Under the pieces are notes generated by a model that ran no database searches, was not told the origin of the DNA, and saw nothing but the letters and a program-made list of their open reading frames with translations. The translations under genes and the position numbers were made by a program. This document shows positions 41,818-56,380 of a DNA stretch of 64,000 nucleotides, piece after piece; the first letter of the stretch is position 1, and every line of letters starts with the position of its first letter. The stretch comes from Falsigemmobacter intermedius (GTDB lineage Bacteria > Pseudomonadota > Alphaproteobacteria > Rhodobacterales > Rhodobacteraceae), in NCBI RefSeq assembly GCF_004054105.1, contig NZ_SBLC01000017.1, positions 1 to 64,000 of the forward strand, written 5' to 3'.

Positions 41818-42378
41818 TCAGCGACCGGCCATTTTGCGCAAGGTGCCGTCACGCCAGGCCAGATCATGCACAGCCACCATGGCGATATGACCAAGGATCA
41901 GGACCAGCATCAGCCAGCCCATCTCGCCGTGCCATTCGGCCACAGCCACGGCCCATTCCACCGGCGGCTCCTGGGCGGGGAAAATCTCAAAGCCGAAAGG
42001 CGCGAAGGCGCGTTGGTTGCCCCAGGCGCGGACCAGTGCGGTAAAGGGGATCAGCACCATCAGCGCGTAAAGCGCGACATGCCCCGCCCGCGCGGCGAGA
42101 CCCTGCAGCCCCTCACCATGCGCCGGACGATTGCCGCGGTTGATCAGCGCCCAGAGGACGCGCAGCACCACCAGGACAAAAATCACCAGGCCCACCGGCT
42201 GGTGGCTGCCCACAATGGCGCTGACGGTGGGGCTTTTCTCCATGGTGACCTTCACCACCATGCCAAAGAGCTGCCACAGGATCAAAGCCGCCAGCCCCCA
42301 GTGCAGAAGGCGGGTTACTTTTCCATAGCGCAGCGCGGTGTCGCGCATGGGCAGGGGGGCATCAGTGGCCTGGGTCAC
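41818..42378 (-). CDS. Cytochrome b561
   Basis: A 186-residue di-heme inner-membrane cytochrome of the bacterial b561 family that passes electrons between quinol and periplasmic acceptors. Heme-ligand histidines are candidates in TRLLHWGLAAL (helix 1), VGSHQPVGLVIF (helix 2), AGHVALYALM (helix 3) and LGHIAMVAVHDL (helix 4). The NQRAFAPFGFEIFP periplasmic loop is typical. It stands alone, divergent from the siderophore operon. A role in periplasmic ferric reduction is conceivable but only from position. Confidence 0.88.
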   Translation of the reverse strand: MTQATDAPLPMRDTALRYGKVTRLLHWGLAALILWQLFGMVVKVTMEKSPTVSAIVGSHQPVGLVIFVLVVLRVLWALINRGNRPAHGEGLQGLAARAGHVALYALMVLIPFTALVRAWGNQRAFAPFGFEIFPAQEPPVEWAVAVAEWHGEMGWLMLVLILGHIAMVAVHDLAWRDGTLRKMAGR

Positions 42379-42522: not shown

Positions 42523-44154
42523 ATGTCCGATCCAGCCCAAAGCCTGCCCCGTCAGATCTGGCCTGAGGAATTTGCGGCCCGCTACCGCGCAGAAGGCTAT
42601 TGGAAGGGCGAAACCTTCGGCAGCTTCCTGCGCGCACGTGCCGCAGCCCATCCTGAGCGGCTGGCGGTCAGTGATGGTGTGAACCGCTGGAGCTATGCTG
42701 AGGTACTGGCGCGGTCAGAGGCGGCGGCGGGGGGCTATATGGCCCTGGGGCTGAAGCCGGGCGATCGGGTGCTGGTGCAGCTTCCGAATGTGGCGACCTT
42801 CCTTCCGGCGGTTTTCGGGCTGTTTCTGGCCGGGCTGATCCCGGTCTATGTGCTGCCCGCCCACCGCAGGACCGAGCTTGAGCATTTTGCCCGCCGCTCA
42901 GGCGCGAAGGCGGTTGTCACGCTCGATCAGTTCGATGGCTTTGCCTATCCCGCCATGGCGGCAGAGGTGCGCGATCTGGTGCCGGATCTGCAACATATCA
43001 TCGTCGCGGGTGAGGCCGGCGGGCATATCTCTTTCGACAGCTTCGGGCAAAAACCTGAGGCTTTCCCGGAGATCGATCCGTCCTCAGTGGCGTTTTTGCA
43101 GATTTCGGGCGGCTCGACGGGGTTGTCGAAGCTGATCCCGAGGACGCATGATGATTACATCTACAGCTTTGCCGCCTCCGGCCCGATCTGCGGGCTGAGC
43201 GAACACTCGGTCTATCTCTGCGCGCTGCCTGCGGCGCATAACTTCCCGATGTCTTCGCCGGGGATTTTCGGCACGCTTTATGCCGGTGGCCGGGTGGTCA
43301 TGGCCCCCAATCCGGCGGCAGAGACCTGTTTTAAGCTGATTGAGGCAGAGCGGGTCACGATCACCGGGCTCGTTCCTCCGCTGGCACTGCTGTGGATGGA
43401 GGCTGCCCCGAAGACCCGTCACGATATCTCCAGCCTTGAGGTGCTGCAGGTCGGCGGGGCGAAATTCGTGGCCGAAGCAGCGGCCCGCGTGCGCCCGGTT
43501 CTGGGCTGCACGCTCCAGCAGGTCTTTGGCATGGCTGAGGGCCTGGTGAATTACACCCGCCTTGAGGATCCCGAAGAGATCATCGTGCAGACCCAGGGGC
43601 GCCCGATCAGCCCCGCCGATGAGGTGCTGATCCTGGATGATGAGGGCAATCCTGTCGAGGACGGCACCCCCGGTCACCTGCTGACCCGTGGCCCCTATAC
43701 CATCCGCGCCTATCACAATGAGCCGGCCGCCAATGCCCGCAGCTTTACCCCGGACGGGTTTTACCGCACCGGCGATATCGTGAAGCGGCTGGAGGGCGGT
43801 TATCTCTCGGTCCAGGGTCGCGCAGGCGACCACATCAACCGCGCGGGCGAAAAGATCTCGGCCGAAGAGGTCGAGGAGCATCTTCTGGCCCATCCGGCGG
43901 TCTTTGACGCGGCTGTGGTCTCAATCCCGGATGAATTCCTGGGCGAGCGGATCTGCGCTTTCATCGTGCCGCGCGGCGAGAAGCCGAAGGGCGCTGAGGT
44001 CAAAGCCTTCATGCGCAAACGGGGTCTGGCTGAATTTAAAGTCCCCGATCAGGTCGTCTTTGTGCCCGAGTTTGAGACCACCGCCGTGGGCAAGGTCTCG
44101 CGCAAGGTGCTACGCGCGCGGCTGCGCGAAGAGTTTATGAAGAAGGAGGCCTGA
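42523..44154 (+). CDS. Aryl-acid AMP ligase, 2,3-dihydroxybenzoate type (EntE/DhbE-like)
   Basis: A 543-residue ANL-family enzyme that should adenylate an aryl acid and load it on the carrier protein encoded next. The P-loop SGGSTGLSKLIPRTH (195-209), GRPISPADEV, the TGD motif in YRTGDIVKR, GRAGDHINRAGEKISAEEVEE and the catalytic Lys in AVGKVSRKVL near the end are intact. The diagnostic pocket stretch HNFPMSSPG lies at 239-247. Asn240 and Ser245 correspond to the DhbE residues that read the 2- and 3-hydroxyl groups; salicylate enzymes carry Cys at the Ser position. It is the first gene of a three-gene operon and is followed by the carrier gene after 2 bases. No genes for making dihydroxybenzoate are nearby. 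Confidence 0.92.
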   Translation: MSDPAQSLPRQIWPEEFAARYRAEGYWKGETFGSFLRARAAAHPERLAVSDGVNRWSYAEVLARSEAAAGGYMALGLKPGDRVLVQLPNVATFLPAVFGLFLAGLIPVYVLPAHRRTELEHFARRSGAKAVVTLDQFDGFAYPAMAAEVRDLVPDLQHIIVAGEAGGHISFDSFGQKPEAFPEIDPSSVAFLQISGGSTGLSKLIPRTHDDYIYSFAASGPICGLSEHSVYLCALPAAHNFPMSSPGIFGTLYAGGRVVMAPNPAAETCFKLIEAERVTITGLVPPLALLWMEAAPKTRHDISSLEVLQVGGAKFVAEAAARVRPVLGCTLQQVFGMAEGLVNYTRLEDPEEIIVQTQGRPISPADEVLILDDEGNPVEDGTPGHLLTRGPYTIRAYHNEPAANARSFTPDGFYRTGDIVKRLEGGYLSVQGRAGDHINRAGEKISAEEVEEHLLAHPAVFDAAVVSIPDEFLGERICAFIVPRGEKPKGAEVKAFMRKRGLAEFKVPDQVVFVPEFETTAVGKVSRKVLRARLREEFMKKEA

Positions 44155-44156
44155 GA

Positions 44157-44393
44157 ATGGCACTCACGCTTGAGCAGATGCGCGCCGATATCGCGCGGAT
44201 GATCCACCTCGATCCTGATGAGATCGGCGATGACGACAGCCTGCCGGATCTGGGTCTCGACAGCCTGCGGCTGATGCGGCTTGCGGTGATCTGGGAAGAA
44301 GCCGGGCTGCGCGCTGATTTTTCGATGTTTGCCGAAAGCACCACTCTGGGTGAGTGGTGGGCGGAAATCGAAGCACGGGGCCTTGTGAACTGA
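44157..44393 (+). CDS. Stand-alone aryl carrier protein
   Basis: A 78-residue phosphopantetheine carrier. The attachment site is Ser36 in DLGLDSLRLMRL. In EntB and VibB the aryl carrier is fused to an isochorismatase domain; here only the carrier half exists, so the dihydroxybenzoate-making function is absent. It lies 2 bases after the aryl-AMP ligase and 1 base before the synthetase, and should hand the aryl group to the condensation domain. It needs a phosphopantetheinyl transferase from elsewhere. Confidence 0.9.
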   Translation: MALTLEQMRADIARMIHLDPDEIGDDDSLPDLGLDSLRLMRLAVIWEEAGLRADFSMFAESTTLGEWWAEIEARGLVN

Positions 44394-44394
44394 A

Positions 44395-47300
44395 ATGACC
44401 ACGACGGACGGCCCGGGCGCTGCAGCTTTTCCACTGACCGAAGCACAGGAAGGTCTGTGGTATTTTCAGGCGCTTGATGCGGAGAACCCGATTTTAAACA
44501 CCGGGCAGTATCTGGAATTCAAAGGCCGTCCCGATCTGAACGCATTGCGCGAGGCCATGTCGCGCATGATCGCCGAAACGGAAGCCCTGCGGCTGCGCTT
44601 TGGCCGGGGTCCGCAGGGACCGGTGCAATGGCTCTCAGACAGCGCGCCGGTGATGACGGAAGCCGATCTGACGCAAAGCCCCGACCCGGAGGGTGAGGCA
44701 CTGCGGTTGATGCGGGCCGATACGGCGCGGGCGCTGGATCTCTCGCGCGATCAGATTGCCGCTTTCACGCTTTATCATCTGAGCGCAGAGCGGTTCTTCC
44801 TTTATCAGCGCATCCATCACCTGGGCATTGACGGCTACGGCTTTGTGCTGCTGACCAACCGGATTGCGGAGCATTATAACCATCTGACCGCCGGCGGTCC
44901 CGAGCCGCTGCCCTTCCGCCCGATTGAGATCGCCTCACTTGAGGATCAGGCCTATCGGACCTCACCAAAGCGCAGCGAAGATGCCGCCTGGTGGCGGGCT
45001 GCCATGGAGGGGCTGCCTGAGGTTCAGGGACCCTCCCCCGGCCGCGCTGTCTCGGGCAGTCAGTTTCTGCGTCATTCGGTCTGGATGCCGCAGGATCTGC
45101 TGGCGGCTTTGTCGCAGTTCTCGGATGCCCATGATCTGAACTGGACCGATGTGCTGACCGGCCTCAGCGGGGCCTATCTCGCCCGCTGGACCGGGGGGGA
45201 AGTGGTTGCGGGCCTGCCCTTCATGGCGCGGATGGGGCGCAAAGTGGCGCGTCTGCCCTCTATGGTGATGAATGTGCTGCCGCAGCGCATCCGCCCGGAT
45301 GAGGCGGCGCCGCTTTCAGACTGGCTGCGCGGCTTTACCCGCGAGATGCGCGAGGCCCGCAAACACGGGCTCTACCGCTCCGAGCAGCTGCGCCGGGATC
45401 TGGGTCTCGTCGGCGGGGCGCGGCGGCTTTACGGGCCTTTGATTAATATCCAACCCTTCGATCGCCCGCCGGTTTTTTCCGGTGTGGATGTGGCGCTGCA
45501 TATCCTGGGCGCGGGCGCGGTGGATGATCTGACGCTGACCTTCCGGGGTGATCCCGAGGCAGGCATGCTCTTTGAGGTGGATGCCAACCCGGGCCTCTAT
45601 GATGCGGCGGCAATCGCGGGCCATTCGGCGCGGCTGATCGCCTTTATCCGCGCGGCGCTGGACGCCGGGCGGCTCGCACCGGTGCCGACCGCCTCACCCG
45701 AAGAGGTGGCGCTGATCGATGCGCGCAACGCAGCTACCCGACATCCGATCCCTGAGACCACGCTGATCGCGCTGATCGAAGCGCAGATGGTGGCCACCCC
45801 CGACGCTCCGGCGCTGTCTTTCCGGGGTGAGGTGCTGAGCTACGCCGAGCTCGACGCCCGTTCGGCGGCTTTGGCGGCTCAACTGCAGTCTTTGGGTGCG
45901 AAACCCGGCGCAATCGTGGCCGTGGCGCTGGACCGCTCGCTGGAGTTGTCGATTGCGCTTCTGGCCATTCAACGCGCAGGCGCGGCCTATCTGCCGCTTG
46001 ATCCCGACCACCCGGCTGACCGCATTGCCACCATCCTGCGCCGTGCCGCGCCGGTGGTGGTGATCTCTTCTGCCGGGCTGACGGGGCTTTTCGGGGCCGA
46101 TGTGCCGCTTTTGCTGACCGATGATTTCGCCACGACGGGCACGCCCGCTCCCTCAGGGGCGACCCCGGATGATATGGCCTATATCATCTTCACCTCCGGC
46201 TCGACCGGGGAGCCGAAGGGCGTGGTGATTGAGCATCGCGCCATCGTTAACCGCCTGCTCTGGATGCGCGATTTCTACGGCTTCCACCCGGGCGACCGCA
46301 TTTTGCAAAAGACGCCTGCGACCTTTGATGTCTCGGTCTGGGAGCTGTTTTTGCCCTATCTGACCGGGGCGACCCTGGTCATGGCGGAACCTGGTGTGCA
46401 CCGCGATCCGGTGGCACTGGCGCGGGTGATCCGTGACGAAGCCATCACCACGCTGCATTTCGTGCCGTCGATGCTCTCGGCCTTCCTGGCCGCTCCGGCA
46501 AGCCAGGGGCTTGAGATTGCGCGCACCTTCTGCTCGGGCGAAGAGCTGACGGCCGATCACCGCGACCGCTTCCACGCCCGCATCAAAGGCGAGCTGCACA
46601 ACCTTTACGGCCCGACAGAGGCGGCGGTGGATGTCAGCTACTGGCCCGCAACGCCCGAGGACCGCTCAAACCCGCTGCCGATCGGCTTTCCGGTCTGGAA
46701 CACCCGGCTTGAGGTGCTGGATGATCTGATGCGGCCCCTGCCGCCGGGTCTGCCGGGGCATCTTTATCTGGGCGGCGTGCAGCTGGCTCGGGGCTATCTG
46801 GGCCGCCCCGACCTGACGGCAGAGCGCTTCATCGCGGACCCGCGACAGCCCGGTGCGCGGCTTTATCAGGCAGGCGACCTGGCGCGGCTGCGCGAGGATG
46901 GGGCAGTGGTCTATCTGGGCCGCTCGGATCACCAGGTAAAAATCCGTGGCCTGCGCATTGAACTCGGTGAGATCGAATCCGCGATCATGGCCACGGGCCT
47001 GGCCCGTGAAGCGGTGGTCATCGCCCGCGAGGATCGCGCCGGTGAAAAGCGCCTCGTGAGCTATGTGGTGCCGGTCGGCACCCATCAGCCCGGGGCCATT
47101 GCAGCGGCGATCGCAAAATCCCTGCCCGCCTATATGCTGCCCTCAGCCGAAGTGCCGCTGGCGGCGCTGCCGGTGACCTCAAACGGCAAGCTGGACCGTA
47201 AGGCCCTGCCTGCGCCGGAATTCTCCGCAAGCGGCCGTCCGGCTTCAACTCCGACCGAGGTGATGCTGGCGGGCCTTTACGCCGAGATCCTGCATCTGCC

Positions 47301-48261
47301 CGCGCCGCCGCCCGCCGAGGCTGATTTCTTCGCCCTTGGCGGTGACAGCCTCTCTGCGGTGACCCTGGCTTTGCGGATTGAGCAAAGCACCGGCCGCGAT
47401 CCCGGGATCGGTGCGATTTTCGAGCAGCCGGTGCTGGCGGGTCTGGCCCGCATCATCGGCGGTGAGGCGGAAAGCGAAAACGGGCTTGGCACCCTTCTGC
47501 TGCTGGCCGAGGGCGATGCCACAGCGGCGCCCCTGGTGCTTTTGCATCCGGCGGGGGGGCTTGGCTGGGGCTACCGCAGTCTCGCGCGGGCCATCGCGCC
47601 GCAGCGGCGGGTCTATGCTCTACAGCACCCCTGCCTTGATCTCTCAGAGAGGCTGCCGCTGAGCCTTGGCGATCTGGCGGGCCGCTATCTGCGGGTGCTG
47701 GAGGCGGCGGGTCTGACCGGGCAGCTCCATCTGGCGGGCTGGTCGGTGGGCGGTCTGATCGCTCAGGAAATGGCGGTTCAGGCGGGCGGGCGCATTGGCA
47801 TGGTGGCGCTGCTCGACAGCTATCCGGCGGATGTCTGGCGCGAAGAGCCTGACCCCGATCCCGTGGCGGCGCTGCGCGCGCTGCTGGCGATTGCGGGGCA
47901 TGATCCTGACGGGCACCAGGACCTCGACACCCGCGCCAAAGTCGTGGCCTTCCTGCGCGAAGGCGACAGCGCGCTTGGGGCTCTGCCCGAAGAGGTGCTG
48001 GACGCCGTGGTGCGGTTGGTGACGGATACCAACCGCCTTGTGCGCAGCCAGTATCACCGTGCCATGGCGGGGGATCTTCTGCATATCCGCGCCGGGCGCG
48101 ATCATGCGGGTCGCAATCTGACGGCGGATCTGTGGCAGCCCTTCGCGGGGCGGGTCATCGCCGAAGAGGTGCCTTTCGTGCATGCGCAGATGATCTCTCC
48201 CGAAGCGGTGGTTGAGATCGCGCCGCTGCTGGCTGCGGGTATGGCGGGGAAGGGGGCCTGA
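44395..48261 (+). CDS. Nonribosomal peptide synthetase, C-A(Ser)-T-TE, EntF type
   Basis: A 1288-residue single-module synthetase. The condensation domain (about 10-430) has HHLGIDG at 141-147. The adenylation domain (about 450-950) has IIFTSGSTGEPKG, FDVSVWEL, HNLYGPTEAAVD and LYQAGDLARL. Reading the specificity residues from FDVSVW, TLHFVPSM, TFCSGEE and LYGPTEAAVD gives D-V-W-H-F-S-L-V-D, the EntF serine code. The carrier Ser985 is in LGGDSL. The thioesterase (about 1035-1288) has Ser1117 in GWSVGG, Asp1141 in LLDSY and His1263 in FVHAQ, a complete triad. The expected product is an aryl-Ser oligomer or macrolactone such as an enterobactin-like trimer. No MbtH-type gene is adjacent. Domain borders are estimates. 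Confidence 0.95.
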   Translation: MTTTDGPGAAAFPLTEAQEGLWYFQALDAENPILNTGQYLEFKGRPDLNALREAMSRMIAETEALRLRFGRGPQGPVQWLSDSAPVMTEADLTQSPDPEGEALRLMRADTARALDLSRDQIAAFTLYHLSAERFFLYQRIHHLGIDGYGFVLLTNRIAEHYNHLTAGGPEPLPFRPIEIASLEDQAYRTSPKRSEDAAWWRAAMEGLPEVQGPSPGRAVSGSQFLRHSVWMPQDLLAALSQFSDAHDLNWTDVLTGLSGAYLARWTGGEVVAGLPFMARMGRKVARLPSMVMNVLPQRIRPDEAAPLSDWLRGFTREMREARKHGLYRSEQLRRDLGLVGGARRLYGPLINIQPFDRPPVFSGVDVALHILGAGAVDDLTLTFRGDPEAGMLFEVDANPGLYDAAAIAGHSARLIAFIRAALDAGRLAPVPTASPEEVALIDARNAATRHPIPETTLIALIEAQMVATPDAPALSFRGEVLSYAELDARSAALAAQLQSLGAKPGAIVAVALDRSLELSIALLAIQRAGAAYLPLDPDHPADRIATILRRAAPVVVISSAGLTGLFGADVPLLLTDDFATTGTPAPSGATPDDMAYIIFTSGSTGEPKGVVIEHRAIVNRLLWMRDFYGFHPGDRILQKTPATFDVSVWELFLPYLTGATLVMAEPGVHRDPVALARVIRDEAITTLHFVPSMLSAFLAAPASQGLEIARTFCSGEELTADHRDRFHARIKGELHNLYGPTEAAVDVSYWPATPEDRSNPLPIGFPVWNTRLEVLDDLMRPLPPGLPGHLYLGGVQLARGYLGRPDLTAERFIADPRQPGARLYQAGDLARLREDGAVVYLGRSDHQVKIRGLRIELGEIESAIMATGLAREAVVIAREDRAGEKRLVSYVVPVGTHQPGAIAAAIAKSLPAYMLPSAEVPLAALPVTSNGKLDRKALPAPEFSASGRPASTPTEVMLAGLYAEILHLPAPPPAEADFFALGGDSLSAVTLALRIEQSTGRDPGIGAIFEQPVLAGLARIIGGEAESENGLGTLLLLAEGDATAAPLVLLHPAGGLGWGYRSLARAIAPQRRVYALQHPCLDLSERLPLSLGDLAGRYLRVLEAAGLTGQLHLAGWSVGGLIAQEMAVQAGGRIGMVALLDSYPADVWREEPDPDPVAALRALLAIAGHDPDGHQDLDTRAKVVAFLREGDSALGALPEEVLDAVVRLVTDTNRLVRSQYHRAMAGDLLHIRAGRDHAGRNLTADLWQPFAGRVIAEEVPFVHAQMISPEAVVEIAPLLAAGMAGKGA

Positions 48262-48277: not shown

Positions 48278-49114
48278 TCAGCGGGCTGCGAACGGCAGTG
48301 CCAGAGGATAAGATCCGGCAAGGGTTTGAATATGCACGTGATCTTTCAGCACATGCAGATCGACCTGCAGCCCCGGATGGGCGGTGATCAGCTCGACAAA
48401 GCTCAGCGTTGCCGGGGCCGGACCCTCCGGCGGCGGCCCGTCTGAGCCTGAGCGCTTCTCTTTATCGCCAAGCGCAAGCAGCACCTCCGGCCGGGGGTCC
48501 GGCACCCGTGCCTCAGCCGCGATGCGCCGGATCAGTGCCTCATCCCACCAGATCGAGGGGCTGATCGGCGCGAAACGCGCAAAGCTCTCAGGATGGGCGA
48601 GGAGCGCATAAAGCACAAAGAGCCCGCCGAAGCTGTGCCCCCAGAGCGTGCGGCGCCCCCCGTCCACCGGCAGCCCGGTCTCCGCGGCTTCGCGGATCTC
48701 ATGGGTCAACAGATGGTGAAAGATCTCAGCGCCCCCAGCCAGACGCCCCTCATGGACGTGATCGGGCCGCAGCCCGGCCCCGGGTGTCAGGGGCGCGGTG
48801 AAGTCTTTGGTGCGCAACTCCCGCGCGAACTGCCGGTCGGTGTCATAGCCAACGGCGGCGATGATCAGCCCCGGAACCTGCGACAGATGGTCCGCCGTCA
48901 GGTAATCAAAAGCGGCATTCCCGTCGAGCATATAGAGGATCGGCCAGCCGCCTTCCGGAGCAGCCCCTTTGGGCACCGCCAGAAAAATTCGATAGCCCGG
49001 ACCGGCAGATAGGGTCTTCTGCGTCAGATCGTGGCTGGCGCATCCGGTCTCAAACAGACGCAGTTCAGCCGGACGGCGGGCGTGATCGGGGCCAACCTTT
49101 CCTGTCGCGGGCAT
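48278..49114 (-). CDS. Siderophore-esterase-like alpha/beta hydrolase (IroE/Fes family)
   Basis: A 278-residue esterase of the putative-esterase (esterase D/IroE) family. YRIFLAVPKG, the oxyanion-side YMLDGNAAFDYL, the nucleophile in LWGHSFGGLFVLYAL (about residue 138) and a C-terminal His in LKDHVHIQTL are visible. IroE and Fes hydrolyse the trilactone of catecholate siderophores to release iron or linearise them. The protein has no obvious signal peptide, so a cytosolic Fes-like role is likelier. The frame opens at 49138; the ATG at 49114 is the likelier start. It is divergent from the uptake genes and sits between them and the synthetase. Confidence 0.82.
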   Translation of the reverse strand: MPATGKVGPDHARRPAELRLFETGCASHDLTQKTLSAGPGYRIFLAVPKGAAPEGGWPILYMLDGNAAFDYLTADHLSQVPGLIIAAVGYDTDRQFARELRTKDFTAPLTPGAGLRPDHVHEGRLAGGAEIFHHLLTHEIREAAETGLPVDGGRRTLWGHSFGGLFVLYALLAHPESFARFAPISPSIWWDEALIRRIAAEARVPDPRPEVLLALGDKEKRSGSDGPPPEGPAPATLSFVELITAHPGLQVDLHVLKDHVHIQTLAGSYPLALPFAAR

Positions 49115-49129
49115 CAGGCAGTTCCTTAT

Positions 49130-49157
49130 AGTTGACAATCCCGATCAGGATTATACT
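49130..49157. promoter_or_regulatory. Candidate iron-control site/promoter between esterase and uptake genes
   Basis: AGTTGACAAT (49130-49139) repeats the decamer found upstream of the synthetase operon. Within it TGA-N9-TCA (49133-49147) fits the general form of the RirA IRO-box half-sites. TATACT at 49152-49157 could be a -10 element, but it is only 14 bases from TTGACA, so the exact promoter is unclear. It lies in the divergent gap and may control both directions. Confidence 0.4.
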
Positions 49158-49218: not shown

Positions 49219-50631
49219 ATGATTTACCCGCCCCGGAGCCGGAGTTTGCGGCGCTGGCTTGGAGCCTCGGCCCTGCTGGTGCTTTGTGCGGCTGCCCCTG
49301 CCACTGCGCAGACGGCTTTCACCCCTGCCGCCACAGAGTTTCAGGGCACGATCACCGCAGCCGCGACTGAGCGGGGGCGGCCGATTCTGCCCGGTGGCGC
49401 GGCAGAAATCCGGGGTCAGGGTCTGGTGGCGGGGCAGAAGATCACCCTGATGCGTGGCCCGCATGTCCTGAATGACACGCCGATCATTGCGGATGCCGAA
49501 GGGGCGTTTACCTTCGGGCTGACGGTGGACGAAGAGGCAGCGGTGGGGCTTCACCCCATTGTGGTCATTGCTGAAAATCCGGCGGCGGCGCGGGTGATTG
49601 ATCTGAAAATCTCGCCCGATCTGCCGCCTCACGGGGCTGAGAATTTCACCATCGAAAGCTCCAGGGTCGGTCCGGGCCTTTACCAGGTGGCCTTTGGCGA
49701 AGCGGCGGGCGCGGTCTTTGTCACCGCCGCCGTTGGGCGTCCGCCGGTCAAAGAAAGCGCGCTTTACCGGCTTGACCCGCAAAGCCTTGAGGTCATTGCC
49801 CGCGGGGCCGTGGGCGAGGCGCCTGCGGGCGCGGGGGGGCGCGATCCGGGTGTCTTCGCCGTCTATGGTCTGGGCCTCGATGAGGCCAATGCCACGATCT
49901 GGACCACCAACACCCGGCAGAACACCGTCGCGATCTATCGCCAGAACGATCTGTCGCTTCTGAAACAGTTTGAGCCCGGCGTGGTCGATCATGGCCGCGA
50001 TGTGGTGATCGACCCCGGCCGGGGCCGCGCCTATATCAGCACCTCCGTCGAGCCGCGCATTGAAGTGTTCACCACCGGCCCCAATCAGAAAACCGACACG
50101 ATCACCATTCAAAGCGCAGAGCGTGGCGGCAAATTCGCCGTGATGAGCCTGGCTTTGGATGCCGCAGCGGGGCGGCTTTATACCGTGTCCATGAGCACCA
50201 ATGAATATGCCGCGGTCGATCTTTTCGATCACAGCGTAACCGTGTTTCCGCTGAAAGGCGCGAAGGGCGCGTCGGGTGTGGCCTATGACCCGCAGGAGGG
50301 GCTTTTGTTCGTGGCCTCCCAGCAAAGCGACAACCTGTTGATCGTAAAGGCGGAAGATGGCACCGTTTTGCATGATGTGCCGGTGGGCGCGGGTGCGCTG
50401 AACGTGGCCTTTGAGCCGAAATCCCGCCAGGCTTTCGTCGCCAACCGCGGCGCAGGCACCATCATCGTGGTCAACACCAGGGGTGAGGTGAAGGCCGTGC
50501 TCGATGCGGGCAGCTTTCCCAATCATCTCCAGGCCGATGGTCTGGGCAATGTCTGGGCGGTGAATAAATCGCGCGGTGCCGATGATGATGCGGGTGACCG
50601 TCTGTGGCGCATCACGCCGAAAGCAGAGTGA
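49219..50631 (+). CDS. Exported YncE-like beta-propeller protein with N-terminal Ig-like domain
   Basis: A 470-residue exported protein. Residues 1-31 form a signal peptide (RRWLGASALLVLCAAAPATAQ). Residues about 35-135 look like an Ig-like beta-sandwich (AAEIRGQGLVAGQKITLMRG, then ADAEGAFTFGLTVDEE). Residues about 145-465 are a seven-bladed-type YncE/YVTN propeller with repeats such as IDPGRGRAYISTS, YDPQEGLLFVASQQSDN and FEPKSRQAFVANRGAGT. E. coli YncE is an iron-repressed periplasmic protein of unclear role, which fits the context. Upstream starts at 49132 (TTG) and 49159 exist; 49219 was chosen because it starts the signal peptide and lies downstream of the promoter-like elements. Confidence 0.82.
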   Translation: MIYPPRSRSLRRWLGASALLVLCAAAPATAQTAFTPAATEFQGTITAAATERGRPILPGGAAEIRGQGLVAGQKITLMRGPHVLNDTPIIADAEGAFTFGLTVDEEAAVGLHPIVVIAENPAAARVIDLKISPDLPPHGAENFTIESSRVGPGLYQVAFGEAAGAVFVTAAVGRPPVKESALYRLDPQSLEVIARGAVGEAPAGAGGRDPGVFAVYGLGLDEANATIWTTNTRQNTVAIYRQNDLSLLKQFEPGVVDHGRDVVIDPGRGRAYISTSVEPRIEVFTTGPNQKTDTITIQSAERGGKFAVMSLALDAAAGRLYTVSMSTNEYAAVDLFDHSVTVFPLKGAKGASGVAYDPQEGLLFVASQQSDNLLIVKAEDGTVLHDVPVGAGALNVAFEPKSRQAFVANRGAGTIIVVNTRGEVKAVLDAGSFPNHLQADGLGNVWAVNKSRGADDDAGDRLWRITPKAE

Positions 50632-50695
50632 ATTGAGACCGCGGCGGGGGCGCTGAGCCCGCGCCGCAAGAAGAAGAAAGAGGCCGGCCTTGGCT

Positions 50696-51802
50696 ATGAT
50701 GATGACCTGGGCGCGCAGGGGGCTCCTTGCGCTTGCAGCCACCCTCGGGGCGGCGGCGCCGCTGGCGGCAGAAGTGCGCGCGCTGGATATTCTGGGGCGT
50801 GAGGTGGTGCTGGAGGCGCCTGCATCGCGCATCGTGCTGGGGGAGGGGCGCCATATGGCGGTCCTTGGGCTCATGCATGAAGATCCGGTCTCAAAGGTCG
50901 TGGGCTGGCGTCTGGACAAGGCGCTCGACCCGCCGACCCTTTCGGCCTATCGCACGAAATTCCCGCAGATTGACGCCATTAAGCCGGTGGGCTCGGGCAA
51001 TCGCGATCTCTCGGTTGAAGCGGTGATCGCGCTGGACCCGGATCTTCTGGTTCTCTCGCTGATGGATGCCAAAGACCCCGGCATGGAGCAGGCGCGCACC
51101 CAGGTTGAGGCGGCGGGCATCCCGGTTGTCTATGTCGATTTCTTCTCGCACCCGCAGCAGAACTCGCTGCCGTCGCTGAAAATTCTCGGCGCTCTGACGG
51201 GTGGAGATGCGAAGGCGGATGAATTTGCAACCTTCTACACCGAGCGGCTGGAGCGGATCACCTCTCGTCTGGCCGATCCGGCGCTGAAGCGCCCGGATGT
51301 GTTTTTCCACGTTCATGCGGCACCGACGAATTGCTGCGCGACCGTGGGGCAGGGGGTGTTTCACGATTTCATCACCACCGCCGGCGGCAATAACATCGGC
51401 AATACCGCCGTGGGCGGCGTTTTGGGCAATGTGAGCCTTGAGTTTCTGATCGGTGCCGATCCGGACATCTATGTCGCCACCGGCGGGGCACATATGGGCC
51501 CGCGCGGCGGGCTGGTGCTTGGCTCGGGCATCAAACCGGGAGAGGCGGAGCTGAGCTTTGATGCCCTGCTCACGGCCCCGGGCTTTTCAGCGCTGACCGC
51601 GATTGAGGAAGGCCGCGCCGCCGGGGTCTGGCATCTGTTTAACGACAGCCCCGTGCATATCGCGCTGATCGAATATCTGGCAAAGCTCTTCCATCCTGAG
51701 GTTTTTGCCGACATTGACCCCGATGCAACGCTGCGCGAGATCGAGACCCGCTTCTCGCCGGTGAGCGTCTTCGGAACCTGGTGGGTCCGCGCCAATGACT
51801 GA
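50696..51802 (+). CDS. Iron-siderophore ABC transporter periplasmic binding protein (FecB/BtuF type)
   Basis: A 368-residue class III binding protein. A signal peptide covers about residues 1-23 (RRGLLALAATLGAAAPLAAE). The family pattern follows: VRALDILGREVVLEAPASRIVL, VIALDPDLLVLSLMDA and GADPDIYVATGG. Three consecutive ATGs lie at 50696-50704; the first is 12 bases after the GAGG at 50680-50683. The stop overlaps the permease start by 8 bases. With the permease and ATPase that follow it should import a ferric siderophore across the inner membrane. Confidence 0.88.
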   Translation: MMMTWARRGLLALAATLGAAAPLAAEVRALDILGREVVLEAPASRIVLGEGRHMAVLGLMHEDPVSKVVGWRLDKALDPPTLSAYRTKFPQIDAIKPVGSGNRDLSVEAVIALDPDLLVLSLMDAKDPGMEQARTQVEAAGIPVVYVDFFSHPQQNSLPSLKILGALTGGDAKADEFATFYTERLERITSRLADPALKRPDVFFHVHAAPTNCCATVGQGVFHDFITTAGGNNIGNTAVGGVLGNVSLEFLIGADPDIYVATGGAHMGPRGGLVLGSGIKPGEAELSFDALLTAPGFSALTAIEEGRAAGVWHLFNDSPVHIALIEYLAKLFHPEVFADIDPDATLREIETRFSPVSVFGTWWVRAND

Positions 51803-52835
51803 GGCCGTTCTTGCCGCCTATCACCGCCGCAACCGCAGGCGCGCGGCTCTCGTCGGCGTCATGGCGCTGGCGGCGCTGCTGGCGCTGATCACCGATCTGA
51901 TGACCGGACCTTCGGGTCTGCCCTTTAGCCAAGTCTGGGGGGCCCTGACCGGGGCGGAAGACATCTCGCGCGGCACGCGGGTCATCGTCTGGGACGTGCG
52001 TTTGCCGGTGGCGGTCATGGCGCTGCTGGTCGGTGCGGCACTCGCCATGGCGGGCGCAGAGATGCAGACCGTTCTGGAAAACCCCTTGGCTGAGCCCTTC
52101 ACCCTTGGCGTTTCCGCTGCTGCGGCGCTTGGTGCGGCGACGGCCATTGTTCTGGGCATCACGCTGCCCTTTATGCCGCCGGTCTGGTCGGTCTCGGTCA
52201 ATGCTTTCCTCTTTGCGCTTGGGGCGCTGGCGCTTTTGCAGCTGCTGGGGCGGTTGCGCGGGGGCGGGACGGAAGTGCTGATCCTTTTCGGCATCGCGCT
52301 GAACTTTGCGGCCGGGGCGTTTTTGTCGCTTCTGCAGTTTGTTGCCTCGGCTGATGCTTTGCAGCAGCTGGTGTTCTGGACGATGGGTAGCCTTGCTTCG
52401 GCCAACTGGGCCTCGGCGGCGATCCTGGCGCTGGTTCTGGCCTGTACCATTCCCTTCGCCTTCCGCGCCTCCTGGCAGCTGACGGCGCTGCGGATGGGGG
52501 AAGATCAGGCGCGCTCTTACGGCGTTGATGTCACCGCTCTGCGCCGCTGGGCGCTTTTGCGCGTGAGCCTTCTGGCGGCGACGGCCGTCTCCATGGTGGG
52601 CATCATTGGTTTTGTGGGGCTGGCAGGGCCGCATATCGCGCGGATGCTGGTGGGCGAAGATCACCGCTTTTTGCTGCCCGCATCGGTGCTGACCGGGGCG
52701 CTGGTGATGTCGCTGGCCTCGGTGCTGGCGAAGCTGGTGGTGCCCGGCGTGCTGCTGCCGGTGGGGCTGGTGACCTCTCTGATTGGTCTGCCGATTTTCT
52801 TTGCGCTGATCCTGCGCGGACGGGGGCGGGCATGA
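51795..52835 (+). CDS. Iron-siderophore ABC transporter permease (FecCD family)
   Basis: A 346-residue FecCD-family permease with about ten helices. Motifs are VRLPVAVMALLVGAALAMAGAEMQTVLENPLAEPF, a variant of the family GxxQxxxxNPLAxP signature, then MGSLASANW and the coupling region GEDQARSYGVDVTALRR with GFVGLAGPHIARMLVGEDHR. Only one permease gene is present, so it should form a homodimer. It overlaps fecB-like and fecE-like genes on either side. Confidence 0.92.
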   Translation: MTEAVLAAYHRRNRRRAALVGVMALAALLALITDLMTGPSGLPFSQVWGALTGAEDISRGTRVIVWDVRLPVAVMALLVGAALAMAGAEMQTVLENPLAEPFTLGVSAAAALGAATAIVLGITLPFMPPVWSVSVNAFLFALGALALLQLLGRLRGGGTEVLILFGIALNFAAGAFLSLLQFVASADALQQLVFWTMGSLASANWASAAILALVLACTIPFAFRASWQLTALRMGEDQARSYGVDVTALRRWALLRVSLLAATAVSMVGIIGFVGLAGPHIARMLVGEDHRFLLPASVLTGALVMSLASVLAKLVVPGVLLPVGLVTSLIGLPIFFALILRGRGRA

Positions 52836-53611
52836 GCGAAGGTCTGATTCTGAAAGACGCCGCCGTACGCTTTGGCGGGCGAGAGGTGCTGAAGGGCTTT
52901 ACCCTTGCGCCCTTGAAGCCCGGCGAAGTGACGGTTCTGGCCGGGCCCAATGGCGCCGGAAAATCCACCCTTCTTAAGGGCATCGCCCGCCTTGCCCCGG
53001 TTGCGGGTGAGATGGTGCTCGACGGAGAGGCGCTCTCGTCGATGTCCGCGCCGCAGCGGGCGCGCAAAATCGGCTTCATGCCGCAGAGCCTGCCCTCAGC
53101 CGCCTCGCTTTCGGTTCTGGAATGCGTGATTGCGGCGCTTCGGGCCGGGGGAGCGCACCACGGGCCGGATGCGGCAGAAAAGGCCATGGCGGTTCTGACG
53201 CGGCTGGGGATTTCCCATCTGGCGCTTGAGGCGCTGGAGAAGCTCTCGGGCGGTCAGCGCCAGATGGTCAGCCTCGCCCAGGCCACGGTGCGTGATCCGC
53301 GGCTTCTGCTGCTCGATGAGCCGACCTCGGCGCTGGATCTGGCGCGCCAGGTGCGGCTGCTTTCCGAAGTGCGCCGCATTGCGTCTGAGGGGCGCATCGT
53401 TCTGGCGGTGCTGCATGATCTGGCGCTGGCGGCCCGCTGGGCGGACCGGATTGCGGTGCTGCACCAGGGCCGGCTTTACGCCGAAGGCCCCCCGGCAGAG
53501 GTCGTCACGCCTGCCATGCTGGCTGAGGTTTACGGCGTCGAGGCCCGGGTTGAGCGCTGCTCAAAAGGCGCTCTGACGGTGCTGATTGACCGCGAGCTGG
53601 AGCCGGCGTGA
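52832..53611 (+). CDS. Iron-siderophore ABC transporter ATPase (FecE/FepC type)
   Basis: A 259-residue ATPase with Walker A GPNGAGKST (about residues 37-45), signature LSGGQRQMVSLAQA, Walker B LLLLDEPTSALD and VLHDLALAARWADRI. It starts in an ATGA overlap with the permease and its own stop overlaps the next gene (TGATG at 53609-53613), where a TRAP transporter begins. That direct coupling to a different transporter class is unusual. Confidence 0.93.
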   Translation: MSEGLILKDAAVRFGGREVLKGFTLAPLKPGEVTVLAGPNGAGKSTLLKGIARLAPVAGEMVLDGEALSSMSAPQRARKIGFMPQSLPSAASLSVLECVIAALRAGGAHHGPDAAEKAMAVLTRLGISHLALEALEKLSGGQRQMVSLAQATVRDPRLLLLDEPTSALDLARQVRLLSEVRRIASEGRIVLAVLHDLALAARWADRIAVLHQGRLYAEGPPAEVVTPAMLAEVYGVEARVERCSKGALTVLIDRELEPA

Positions 53612-54135
53612 TGCAGCGGCTGAGCGCGGTGGTCCTACGGCTTGAAAAGGCCCTGGCAGGGGCTTTGACCTTTGCGATCCTTCTGCTGGTGGGGCTTGGA
53701 TCTGTCGCGCGCGGCCTGGGTGCGCCCCAGGTCTGGACGGATGAGCTGGCGGTGCATCTGATGGTGATGCTGGCCTTTATCGCCGCCTCTATGGGGGTGG
53801 CGTTGCAAAATCACATGGCCATGGGGCTGATGCCGGAAAGCCTTGGCCCGCGCGGGCGGCGCGTTCTGGCGCGGGTGAACCAGGGGCTGATCCTTGGGTT
53901 TATGGCGCTGATGGCGCTGCTGACCTGGGTGTGGCTCGACATTCCCGGACTGATCGCTGCCGGAAGCGGCGAGGCCCTGGCCGAGAGCAGTTTCAACTTC
54001 GCCTGGACCGACCCGACCCTGACGCTTGGTCTGCGCAAGATCTGGTTCTGGCTGGTGATCCCGGCCTCGGTGCTCTCGGGCATGCTGCATGTGCTGGCGC
54101 AGATCTTCGCGCCGCTGCCGGAGACTGCGGTATGA
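53611..54135 (+). CDS. TRAP transporter small permease (DctQ family)
   Basis: A 174-residue protein with four hydrophobic helices and the DctQ pattern (LEKALAGALTFAILLLVGLGSVAR, VWTDELAVHLMVMLAFIAASMGVAL with the conserved WxxE-like WTDE). The ATG at 53611 overlaps the ATPase stop; a GTG at 53608 is an alternative start. It is the small membrane partner of the DctM subunit that follows in an ATGA overlap. Confidence 0.88.
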   Translation: MQRLSAVVLRLEKALAGALTFAILLLVGLGSVARGLGAPQVWTDELAVHLMVMLAFIAASMGVALQNHMAMGLMPESLGPRGRRVLARVNQGLILGFMALMALLTWVWLDIPGLIAAGSGEALAESSFNFAWTDPTLTLGLRKIWFWLVIPASVLSGMLHVLAQIFAPLPETAV

Positions 54136-55388
54136 TTGCTTCGCTGGGCTTTCTGATCCTGATGGCGCTTGGCGCGCCGCTGGCCTTCGTGCTGATCGCG
54201 GTGGCGGTGATCCTGGTGCTTGAGGGCGGCAATACCGCGCTTCTTTCCGCCTTTCCGCAGCAGCTTTTTGCGGGGATGGAAAGCCCGGCCATGCTGACGC
54301 TGCCGCTGTTCATTCTGCTGGGCGAGCTGATGGGCGCGGGCGGCATCGGGCGCAGGCTTTTTGCTTTTGCCGCAGCCCTGCTGCCGCCGCTGCGGGCAGG
54401 GATGGCGCAGGTGAACCTGCTGACCAATCTGATGATGGCTTCGGTCTTAGGCTCAACCGTGGCGCAGCTGACGGTGATGTCGCGCCTTGCCGTGCCCGAG
54501 ATGGAGCGCGCGGGCTATCCGCGCGACGTCTCAGCCACGGTGACGGCGGCGGGGGGGCTTCTGGCACCGCTGCTGCCGCCCTCGATGAATCTGATCGTCT
54601 TTGCCGCCGTGGCACAGCTTCCGGTGGGCGATCTTTTTGCGGCGTCGATCCTGCCGGGGCTTGCGATGGCTTTTGCCTTTATGCTGGTGATCGCCTTCCT
54701 GGGCTGGCGCGCGCAACTCCCGGTCTCGGGCGGGCTGCCGCTGGCGGCGCGGGGGCGTGATCTCCTGATGGGGCTTCCGGCGCTGGCTGTGCCGCTGGCG
54801 GCGGTGGGCAGTATCCTCAGCGGGATTGCCACGCCCACGGAATCGGCGGCCATGGCCTCTCTCGCGGCGCTGCTGGTGGGCGGTCTGATCTACCGCGAGC
54901 TGACCTGGGCTGCGCTGCCGGGGATCTTTGTGCGCAGTGGCATCACGGCGGGGATTGTGCTTTATCTGGTCGGCGCGGCACAGATTATGGGCTGGGTGAT
55001 GACCTTTGCCAATGTGCCGGCCATGGCGGCCGAATTCATTCAGGAGATGGCGGGATCGCCGCTGATGTTCCTGATTTTGCTCAATATCCTGCTTTTGCTG
55101 CTGGGAACGGTGCTGGAGCCGGTGCCGGCCATCATCCTGACCGCGCCGGTGCTTTTGCCGGTGGCGGTCAGCGGCTTCGGTATCGATCCGGTGCAGTTCG
55201 GGCTGATCCTTTGCGCCAATCTGGCGCTTGGCCTGCTGACCCCGCCGGTGGGGGCGGGGCTTTATACGGCTGCGCTGATGACCGGGGTCTCAGCGGGTCG
55301 TCTGTCACGACTTTTGCTGCCGTTCTTCGGCGCGATGCTTGCGGTGATCGCAGGCATGACCATTCACGCCGCGCTGAACGCGGGATGA
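54132..55388 (+). CDS. TRAP transporter large permease (DctM family)
   Basis: A 418-residue inner-membrane carrier with about 12 helices. The DctM motifs are TLPLFILLGELMGAGGIGRRLF, ASVLGSTVAQLTVMSRLAVPEM, LLAPLLPPSMNLIVFA, GIATPTESAAMASLAALLVG and the C-terminal GLILCANLALGLLTPPVGAGLY. It drives sodium-coupled uptake of the solute delivered by the DctP-type protein. The frame opens earlier, but the ATG at 54132 overlaps the dctQ-type stop. Confidence 0.93.
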   Translation: MIASLGFLILMALGAPLAFVLIAVAVILVLEGGNTALLSAFPQQLFAGMESPAMLTLPLFILLGELMGAGGIGRRLFAFAAALLPPLRAGMAQVNLLTNLMMASVLGSTVAQLTVMSRLAVPEMERAGYPRDVSATVTAAGGLLAPLLPPSMNLIVFAAVAQLPVGDLFAASILPGLAMAFAFMLVIAFLGWRAQLPVSGGLPLAARGRDLLMGLPALAVPLAAVGSILSGIATPTESAAMASLAALLVGGLIYRELTWAALPGIFVRSGITAGIVLYLVGAAQIMGWVMTFANVPAMAAEFIQEMAGSPLMFLILLNILLLLLGTVLEPVPAIILTAPVLLPVAVSGFGIDPVQFGLILCANLALGLLTPPVGAGLYTAALMTGVSAGRLSRLLLPFFGAMLAVIAGMTIHAALNAG

Positions 55389-55399
55389 GGAGAGAGGCC

Positions 55400-56380
55400 A
55401 TGAGCTTTCTGAAAAAGATCACCACGGCGGCCGTTCTGGCCTTTGGCGTCACGGCTGCGCCGGCATCGGCGCAGGAGCTGAAGATCGGTCTGATCACCCC
55501 GCCGCCGCACCAGTGGACCCGCTCTGCCGGACATCTGGCTGAGCGGCTGGCGGCGGAAAGCGAAGGCCGCCTGAAGCTTTCGGTGTTTCCGGCGGGGCAG
55601 CTCGGCTCTGAGGCGCAGATGCTGCAGCAACTGCAATCGGGCGCTTTGGATCTGGCCTTTATGACGGTGGGCGAATTTGCCAACCGCGATGAGGAATTTA
55701 ACATCCTGGTGGCCCCCTATCTCGTTGAAACGGCAGAGCAGGCGGCAAAACTTCTTGAAGGGCCGACGGCGGCTGCGCTGCAGGGGAAACTTGGTAAGCT
55801 GGGGCTGAAGGGCCTGGGCTTTGGGATGGCGGGGATGCGGATCGTGCTGCTGTCGCAGCCGCTGGGCGAAGAGGGCACTGTGAAGGGCCGCAAGATCCGC
55901 ACCGTGCCGCTGGCCTCAGAGCTGGATTTCTGGTCGATGGCGGGGGCTGCGCCCACGCCGCTGCCGCTGCCGGATCTGTTTGATTCCTATGCCAACGGTC
56001 AGATCGATGGCATGCAGCTTGACCTGGAGGGGACGTTCAACACCCGCTATTATGATTACTCAAAGGCCGTGCTGAACAGCCGCCACATGATTTTCCCGAT
56101 GGTCGCCGTGGCCTCGGGGCGCAAATGGCAAAGCCTGTCTGAGGCAGATCGCGCGCTGATTGAGCGGCTGGTGGCCGAGGAAACAGCGGCGATCCGTGCG
56201 GCCTATCCGAAGATCGATGCGGATTACGCGGCGAAACTGGCCGGGGCCGGTGTGCAGGTGGAAGAGGCCGGACCGGAGATTTTCGGCAGCGCCGTTGCGA
56301 GCTGGTATGAAACCTGGCGGGCAAAGACCCCGCGCCTGACTGAGCTTGAGGCTGAAGCCAAAGCCCTGCGCGGGAACTGA
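55400..56380 (+). CDS. TRAP transporter periplasmic binding protein (DctP family)
   Basis: A 326-residue binding protein with a signal peptide ending PASAQE and the DctP layout (TPPPHQWTRSAGHLAERL, FPAGQLGSEAQMLQQLQSGALDLAF). Arginines in GMRIV and KIRTV are placed where the family holds a carboxylate-contacting Arg, so an organic acid is the likely ligand. The ATG at 55400 has GAGGAGAGAGG before it; the ATG at 55385 in the dctM overlap is less likely. It closes the unit that started with the YncE-like gene and FecBDE-type importer. Confidence 0.9.
   Translation: MSFLKKITTAAVLAFGVTAAPASAQELKIGLITPPPHQWTRSAGHLAERLAAESEGRLKLSVFPAGQLGSEAQMLQQLQSGALDLAFMTVGEFANRDEEFNILVAPYLVETAEQAAKLLEGPTAAALQGKLGKLGLKGLGFGMAGMRIVLLSQPLGEEGTVKGRKIRTVPLASELDFWSMAGAAPTPLPLPDLFDSYANGQIDGMQLDLEGTFNTRYYDYSKAVLNSRHMIFPMVAVASGRKWQSLSEADRALIERLVAEETAAIRAAYPKIDADYAAKLAGAGVQVEEAGPEIFGSAVASWYETWRAKTPRLTELEAEAKALRGN

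Follow-up and report, generated by a model that had tools for sequence, protein, structure and literature searches.

We analysed the first 64,000 nucleotides of contig NZ_SBLC01000017.1 from Falsigemmobacter intermedius (referred to as the window; contig C62 of genome G000 in our comparisons), in which a siderophore locus extends from an entE-type gene through to dctP of a tripartite ATP-independent periplasmic (TRAP) transporter, up to position 56380. The assembly genes are read on the forward strand and comprise an entE-type 2,3-dihydroxybenzoate (DHB)-AMP ligase (42523–44154; TIGR02275 701.4 bits, 22 bits under the cut-off of 723.55), a free-standing protein of 78 residues with an LDSL phosphopantetheine site (44157–44393), whose RefSeq orthologue is named a phosphopantetheine-binding protein and which we infer to be the aryl carrier, and an entF-type non-ribosomal peptide synthetase (NRPS; 44395–48261), for which Pfam domains give the order condensation, adenylation, thiolation and thioesterase (C-A-T-TE). 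A Fes/IroE-like esterase lies on the reverse strand (48278–49138; PF00756 47.9 bits, the top enterochelin esterase model reaching 22.8 bits), and translation may actually begin at the ATG at 49114. The forward strand continues with a YncE-like beta-propeller protein (49219–50631, with its ATG at 49219; NF052280 85.1 bits, cut-off 400), a FecB-type ferric-siderophore binding protein (50690–51802, start codon uncertain; PF01497 53.5 bits), a FecCD-type permease (fecD, 51795–52835; PF01032 279.9 bits) and a FecE-type ATPase (52832–53611; PF00005 102.4 bits, NF008409 FecE 177.3 bits with a cut-off of 375). All three components of a DctPQM-type TRAP system complete the run, namely the small permease dctQ (53611–54135; PF04290 61.9 bits), the large permease dctM (54132–55388; TIGR00786 329.6 bits, above the cut-off) and the substrate-binding protein dctP (55400–56380; PF03480 157.5 bits), the N-terminus of which is signal-peptide-like. 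Since the genome holds 21 DctM-family matches, a TRAP system is in itself ordinary here.

An earlier note on this DNA, with coordinates confined to the TRAP genes, had described the TRAP transporter as translationally fused to the ferric-siderophore importer. The junctions it gave are exact: the fecE stop TGA (53609–53611) shares one base with the dctQ ATG (53611–53613), giving TGATG at 53609–53613, the dctM ATG (54132–54134) overlaps the dctQ stop (54133–54135) by the four bases ATGA, and the dctM stop ends at 55388, leaving 11 bases before the dctP ATG at 55400. The wording as a fusion is overstated, since these are overlapping genes and no fusion protein is present, though the overlaps could possibly couple translation of fecE, dctQ and dctM. 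Among the genomes examined, the junction is not confined to this strain, as fecE and dctQ adjoin each other in 12 compared loci (the window counted). An overlap of 1 or 4 bases is available in 10 of these 12, the other two having values of 8 and 11 bases, where overlap lengths depend partly on the choice of our script to take the in-frame start closest to the stop. Independent 4-base overlaps at both fecE/dctQ and dctQ/dctM are given by the RefSeq annotation of the Haematobacter massiliensis plasmid pOT1-1, which has the order yncE-like gene, substrate-binding protein, permease, ATPase, TRAP small and large permease, substrate-binding protein, cytochrome b, AMP-binding protein, carrier and NRPS. 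At other loci the TRAP genes occupy a different place within the cluster; plasmid pDY25-A of Pacificitalea manganoxidans, for one, carries dctQ, dctM, dctP, esterase, propeller, entE, carrier, NRPS and a FepA-type receptor, without FecBDE. That the TRAP system belongs to every cluster of EntE, EntF and FecBDE was ruled out, since genomes G394, G070, G095, G338, G299 and G300 have this core and FecBDE without an adjoining TRAP. At a further locus (L119, 9549–10302, genome G006), a TonB receptor is followed by a stretch in which the first part of dctQ runs directly into the last part of dctP, dctM having been lost, and then by an esterase; this is a remnant of a siderophore-type TRAP, and no EntE was found in that genome at 1e-100.

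The closest solved chain to EntE is DhbE (1md9, 695.6 bits), with which it has the segments SSPG and GLVNYT in common, the salicylate ligase 5wm2 carrying CPG and GLLNYT at these positions; judged by its sequence, EntE retains the DHB-type residues of DhbE. In an alignment of EntF with E. coli EntF (5ja1), the motifs FDVSVWE, HFVPSML, FCSGE and LHNLYGPTEAAVDVS, which make up the surroundings of the adenylation pocket, are common to both, and specificity for serine is presumed from the code positions. The product of the locus is probably a DHB–serine siderophore of the enterobactin kind. The system resembles those for enterobactin and bacillibactin (EntCBAEF, Fes, FepBDGC) in its EntE, carrier, EntF with C-A-T-TE organisation, esterase and FecBDE-type importer, but differs from them in three respects: the genome is without entC or entA, the carrier is free-standing, and a TRAP transporter lies in the same gene run. 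In E. coli the aryl carrier domain is part of EntB. The 78-residue carrier here is encoded between entE and entF and is retained in syntenic copies of the locus.

That the genes for making DHB are missing, as the earlier note had stated, could be confirmed for the isochorismate route over the whole genome, the assembly of which is listed as 100% complete: isochorismate synthase (TIGR00543) gave a single match of 165.8 bits, under the cut-off of 224.75, and DHB dehydrogenase (TIGR04316) gave none at 1e-50. Four isochorismatase-family matches were found, all of them on other contigs, and own synthesis of DHB via EntC, EntB and EntA was not recovered in this genome. Between the window and a congener copy from Falsigemmobacter faecalis (L029, on the same contig as L195), ratios of nonsynonymous to synonymous substitution (dN/dS) range from 0.035 to 0.18 over entE, carrier, entF, esterase, fecD, fecE, dctQ, dctM and dctP. 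The cluster is therefore maintained and not decaying, despite the entC-less status of both genomes. A TonB-dependent receptor lies inside the cluster at other loci; in the genome of the window, a search by homology to the receptor beside the TRAP of locus L203 gave no strong match, with hits of 33–38% on contigs C24, C75 and C79.

The absence of DHB genes goes with the TRAP transporter in the family sample. EntE was searched in 394 family genomes irrespective of TRAP, yielding 13 genomes at ≥60% identity and two with a more distant EntE, and membership of the DctP clade was called at ≥50% identity with five candidates scored per genome. Five of the 13 genomes (G000, G177, G254, G299 and G324) carry the DctP clade, and entC exceeds its cut-off in none of them, while entC is present in all eight genomes without the clade; none of the 13 is without both. 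The resulting split (entC absent in 5/5 against 0/8) would have a chance of 1 in 1287 were the genomes independent, which they are not. DHB dehydrogenase was detected at 1e-50 in six of the eight entC genomes, the others being G099 and G300, and one of the two genomes with a distant EntE (G155) likewise has entC and no TRAP. In a named set of 26 genomes, selected because both TRAP and siderophore genes are present, entC above the cut-off is absent in 19 and present in seven. A rule that the TRAP and entC never occur together, which the pattern in the 13 genomes would have suggested, was thereby ruled out, and the TRAP accompanies loss of DHB synthesis without excluding synthesis. In the genome of L256, the isochorismate synthase match of 210.4 bits stays just under 224.75, and neither entB nor entA is present in the stretch retrieved around it. 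In Paracoccus sp. IB05, where entCBA is kept, dctQ and dctM are each split in two frames (L196, 8088–9850), reflecting either decay or sequencing error.

The structure model of DctP from the window (pLDDT 91) has its best match in SPO1773 of Ruegeria pomeroyi (4paf; Z score 42.7, root-mean-square deviation 1.6 over 302 residues, 40% identity), with the next structure at a Z score of 37.1 and a sequence match to SPO1773 of 242.5 bits. The nearest solved homologue lies outside the C4-dicarboxylate proteins. R147 and R167 are invariant in 26 aligned DctP rows, in keeping with the conserved binding-site arginine of the DctP fold. The ligands in the SPO1773 structures 4PAF, 4PAI and 4PBH are reportedly benzoate, 3-hydroxybenzoate and 3,4-dihydroxybenzoate. 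SPO1773 has the same fold and subfamily as DctP from the window, but no link to a siderophore was seen for it and by identity it stands outside the present DctP clade.

An alignment built from 11 DctP proteins served to scan a single genome of each species for this clade and gave 76 loci, the contexts of which were labelled by identity thresholds of our own choice within flanks of up to 10 kb. Siderophore genes (entE, carrier or entF) adjoin dctP in 26 loci, and genes of meta-cleavage (extradiol dioxygenase and/or class II aldolase) in 42; a full set of dioxygenase, class II aldolase and 2-hydroxymuconic semialdehyde (HMS) dehydrogenase occurs in 34 of the latter. No locus combines the two contexts, and eight have neither (two from Paenalcaligenes, one each from Arenibacterium and Paracoccus salipaludis, two from Ramlibacter with identities near 40%, a remnant and a clostridial locus at 26%). 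The best-kept catabolic operons have the order GntR regulator, dctQ, dctM, 3-hydroxyacyl-CoA dehydrogenase (3HCDH)-like gene, dctP, two extradiol-type genes, class II aldolase, HMS dehydrogenase, HpaH-like and HpaI-like genes. The HMS dehydrogenase reaches 819 bits (cut-off 693.25), the dioxygenases and the class II aldolase give superfamily matches only, below all NCBIfam cut-offs, and for the dioxygenases solved structures and annotated plasmids returned only general extradiol or VOC names. In Pseudomonas reinekei, DhbB is a class II aldolase which decarboxylates the ring-cleavage product of DHB (PMC6362003). Since the gene set of the catabolic operons is compatible with 3,4-cleavage of DHB, their substrate is likely a DHB-like catechol acid. 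An HMS dehydrogenase and, by superfamily, an extradiol dioxygenase and a candidate decarboxylase connect these operons with the dhb genes of P. reinekei and the opa genes of Pseudomonas PTH10; PTH10 has a TAXI-type TRAP, thought to be a phthalate carrier, in contrast to the DctPQM system, HpaH-/HpaI-like enzymes and 3HCDH-like gene found here (PMC6362003). The 3HCDH-like gene lies between dctM and dctP in many catabolic operons (L103, L109, L110, L111 and relatives), and HpaH- and HpaI-like enzymes replace those of DmpE/DmpG type in the lower pathway, a set which possibly constitutes an unusual route from 2-hydroxymuconate.

To place these contexts on a phylogeny, a DctP tree of 73 rows was rooted at its midpoint, beside Ramlibacter, with L237 (stop within the matched stretch), L268, L269 and L270 excluded. 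The siderophore rows form two well-supported groups amid catabolic relatives, one of 20 rows including the window and one of six rows from Mangrovicoccus, Salipiger, Citreicella, Oceanicola and Pseudooceanicola. The tree forces two changes of context, a number as low in none of 500 shuffles, and supersedes an earlier tree of 18 rows with a single, weakly supported siderophore group (61/88). The DctP clade entered siderophore loci at least twice, separately. The connection between TRAP and siderophore proposed in the earlier note is thus real and kept beyond the strain, with at least two origins by the tree. One copy per context is held by two Paracoccus strains, IB05 (L196, L228) and Paracoccus haematequi (L208, L252).

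Two layouts for catecholate use occur in one family, an exported esterase without flanking FecBDE and FecBDE together with a signal-less esterase. No signal peptide was seen on the esterase of the window, which shares its cluster with FecBDE, and hydrolysis is therefore probably cytoplasmic in this group; the same layout is found at L137, L138 and L140. In the second siderophore group, most esterases carry a signal peptide (L248, L249, L253, L256, L261 and L114) and the flank contains no FecBDE. The signal-peptide score is home-made, with intermediate values of 1.34 and 1.94 for the FecBDE clusters L136 and L139 and no value for L251. Since the TRAP was recruited into both layouts, its presence is independent of the site of hydrolysis.

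We propose DctPQM as a TRAP uptake system for an aryl acid, either DHB or a near analogue, which supplies EntE and thereby renders entCBA dispensable, and we consider this reading probable. Ligand, direction of use and function as an importer are its conditional elements: DctPQM would take in external DHB or a near analogue and deliver it to EntE, which would activate it, the small carrier protein would hold it, and EntF would couple it to serine to give an enterobactin-like siderophore. The ferric siderophore would re-enter via TonB and FecBDE and be opened by the cytoplasmic esterase. In evolutionary terms, a DHB importer of catechol-acid catabolism would have been recruited into siderophore loci at least two times, and its presence would have made entCBA dispensable, with subsequent loss in the lineage of the window. 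In favour of this reading are the two genomic contexts of the clade, the compatibility of the catabolic operons with DHB cleavage, the two siderophore groups of the tree, the entC pattern, the DHB-type residues of EntE, SPO1773 as the nearest solved binding protein, purifying selection on the cluster in two species without entC, and the occurrence of the TRAP with both esterase layouts. Gene content, conservation, the double recruitment and the entC pattern are themselves shown by the data.

Several observations weigh against this proposal. Seven of the 26 named genomes keep an entC-entB-entA operon, always outside the siderophore cluster, and an entA-like gene is retained in four of the 19 entC-less genomes (L280 2028–3473, L281 7016–7783, L282 380–1147 and L187 3305–4072), one of which also has entB next to it; these genes are remains of the lost pathway or serve another use, and would be unexpected after a finished loss. 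Absence of entC in draft genomes may also be an assembly gap, and the search of the own genome for DHB synthesis covered the isochorismate route only. Among the genomes searched by EntE, the clade member of G299, a fragmented draft with 5% contamination, lies in a catabolic operon and not in the siderophore locus, and G126, with an EntE of 39% identity, has neither entC nor TRAP. The substrate of the catabolic relatives could furthermore be another catechol acid, e.g. protocatechuate, and their HpaH/HpaI-type enzymes differ from those of published DHB pathways.

The earlier note had suggested that the TRAP brings in either the aryl acid or a hydrolysed siderophore fragment for reuse, which is supported in outline, with the aryl-acid precursor being favoured. 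Retrieval by the TRAP of periplasmic fragments (DHB or DHB-serine) of used siderophore, whether made by the cell itself or by a neighbour, has its best case in the second group, where dctP is directly followed by the esterase with signal peptide and no FecBDE flanks it (L112, L114 and relatives), so that fragments would arise in the periplasm. In the group of the window, the signal-less esterase and FecBDE would leave fragments in the cytoplasm, and this locus fits fragment reuse less well. For reuse, a TRAP would be called for in the second layout only, and where entC is missing reuse by itself brings no gain in DHB, which is why precursor supply is favoured, and no gene freeing DHB from DHB-serine was seen in the mapped clusters, no genome-wide search having been made. 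We therefore regard fragment reuse as an unlikely explanation, though as the main alternative. Slightly less likely still is carriage of an unrelated organic acid, with the siderophore link due to chance or shared regulation, as TRAPs are plentiful in this genome (21 DctM-family matches) and gene overlaps are frequent in genomes of this type, yet the same DctP clade stands at siderophore genes in 26 of 76 loci and in two separate groups, and the entC pattern argues against it, as does the fact that the closest solved homologue does not belong to the dicarboxylate proteins. Import of DHB or another catechol acid for catabolism or detoxification, with siderophore DHB made by an unrecognised route, is highly improbable, since for all the mostly catabolic context of the clade (42 of 76) and an entC/entA search limited to the isochorismate route, meta-cleavage genes flank none of the 26 siderophore-linked loci and the two Paracoccus strains hold separate copies, one per context.

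For the aryl-acid importer that we favour, a sequence upstream of the yncE–fecBDE–dctQMP run might indicate its regulation. A TGA-N9-TCA site, which resembles the iron boxes of this group, lies at 49133–49147 on the forward strand and overlaps TTGACA at 49132–49137. Such a site is present in seven of 11 upstream regions (the window included; no shuffle control) and not in the entE promoter. Its position before the run hints at iron control, which is only suggestive. Among neighbouring features, a cytochrome b561-like gene on the reverse strand (41818–42378; PF01292 98.1 bits) is retained beside many copies of the locus, and a TniB-like ATPase and a Mu-type transposase domain (L118, 9680–11793) lie outside the window near the end of contig C62, about 13 kb past the TRAP genes. 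Copies of the YncE-like propeller are named ATP-binding protein in RefSeq, a name for which family matches give no support.

Aromatic TRAPs, DHB catabolism, enterobactin assembly and the need for an outside aryl acid are each already known separately, and the addition made here is a dedicated importer encoded within the cluster. TRAP systems of DctPQM type that act on aromatic acids are cited in PMC6362003 from Comamonas DJ-12, Aromatoleum EbN1 and R. palustris; in the passage concerned, all are catabolic and none is tied to siderophore assembly. A comparable dependence is described for equibactin of Streptococcus equi, the synthetase product of which also needs an added aryl acid, salicylate in defined medium; this system differs in being Gram-positive and in using salicylate, and no dedicated aryl-acid importer is mentioned in the passages concerned (PMC3672683). 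In a literature search by titles and opening lines of abstracts, with subscription journals mostly outside its scope, no TRAP system joined to siderophore assembly was found.

A 2026 survey of metallophores reports ten clusters without a chelator pathway genome-wide, leaving fragments, outside precursors or unknown syntheses open as explanations (PMC12971057). For one such group of chelator-less clusters, we propose a specific importer. If this is true, siderophore clusters without chelator genes would be importer-fed working systems and not wrecks, and genome-mining tools should seek this TRAP clade where entCBA is missing. The proposal would further name a DHB uptake system, which is apparently missing in one DHB-degrading strain, as PTH10 does not grow on DHB and the authors blame lack of uptake (PMC6362003). 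For the family itself, we lean towards the view that a lineage of the Paracoccaceae may have become auxotrophic for the moiety by which its siderophore binds iron, in which a dedicated DHB importer, recruited from catechol catabolism at least twice, would replace chelator synthesis and catechols from algae, plants or neighbours would provide the supply.

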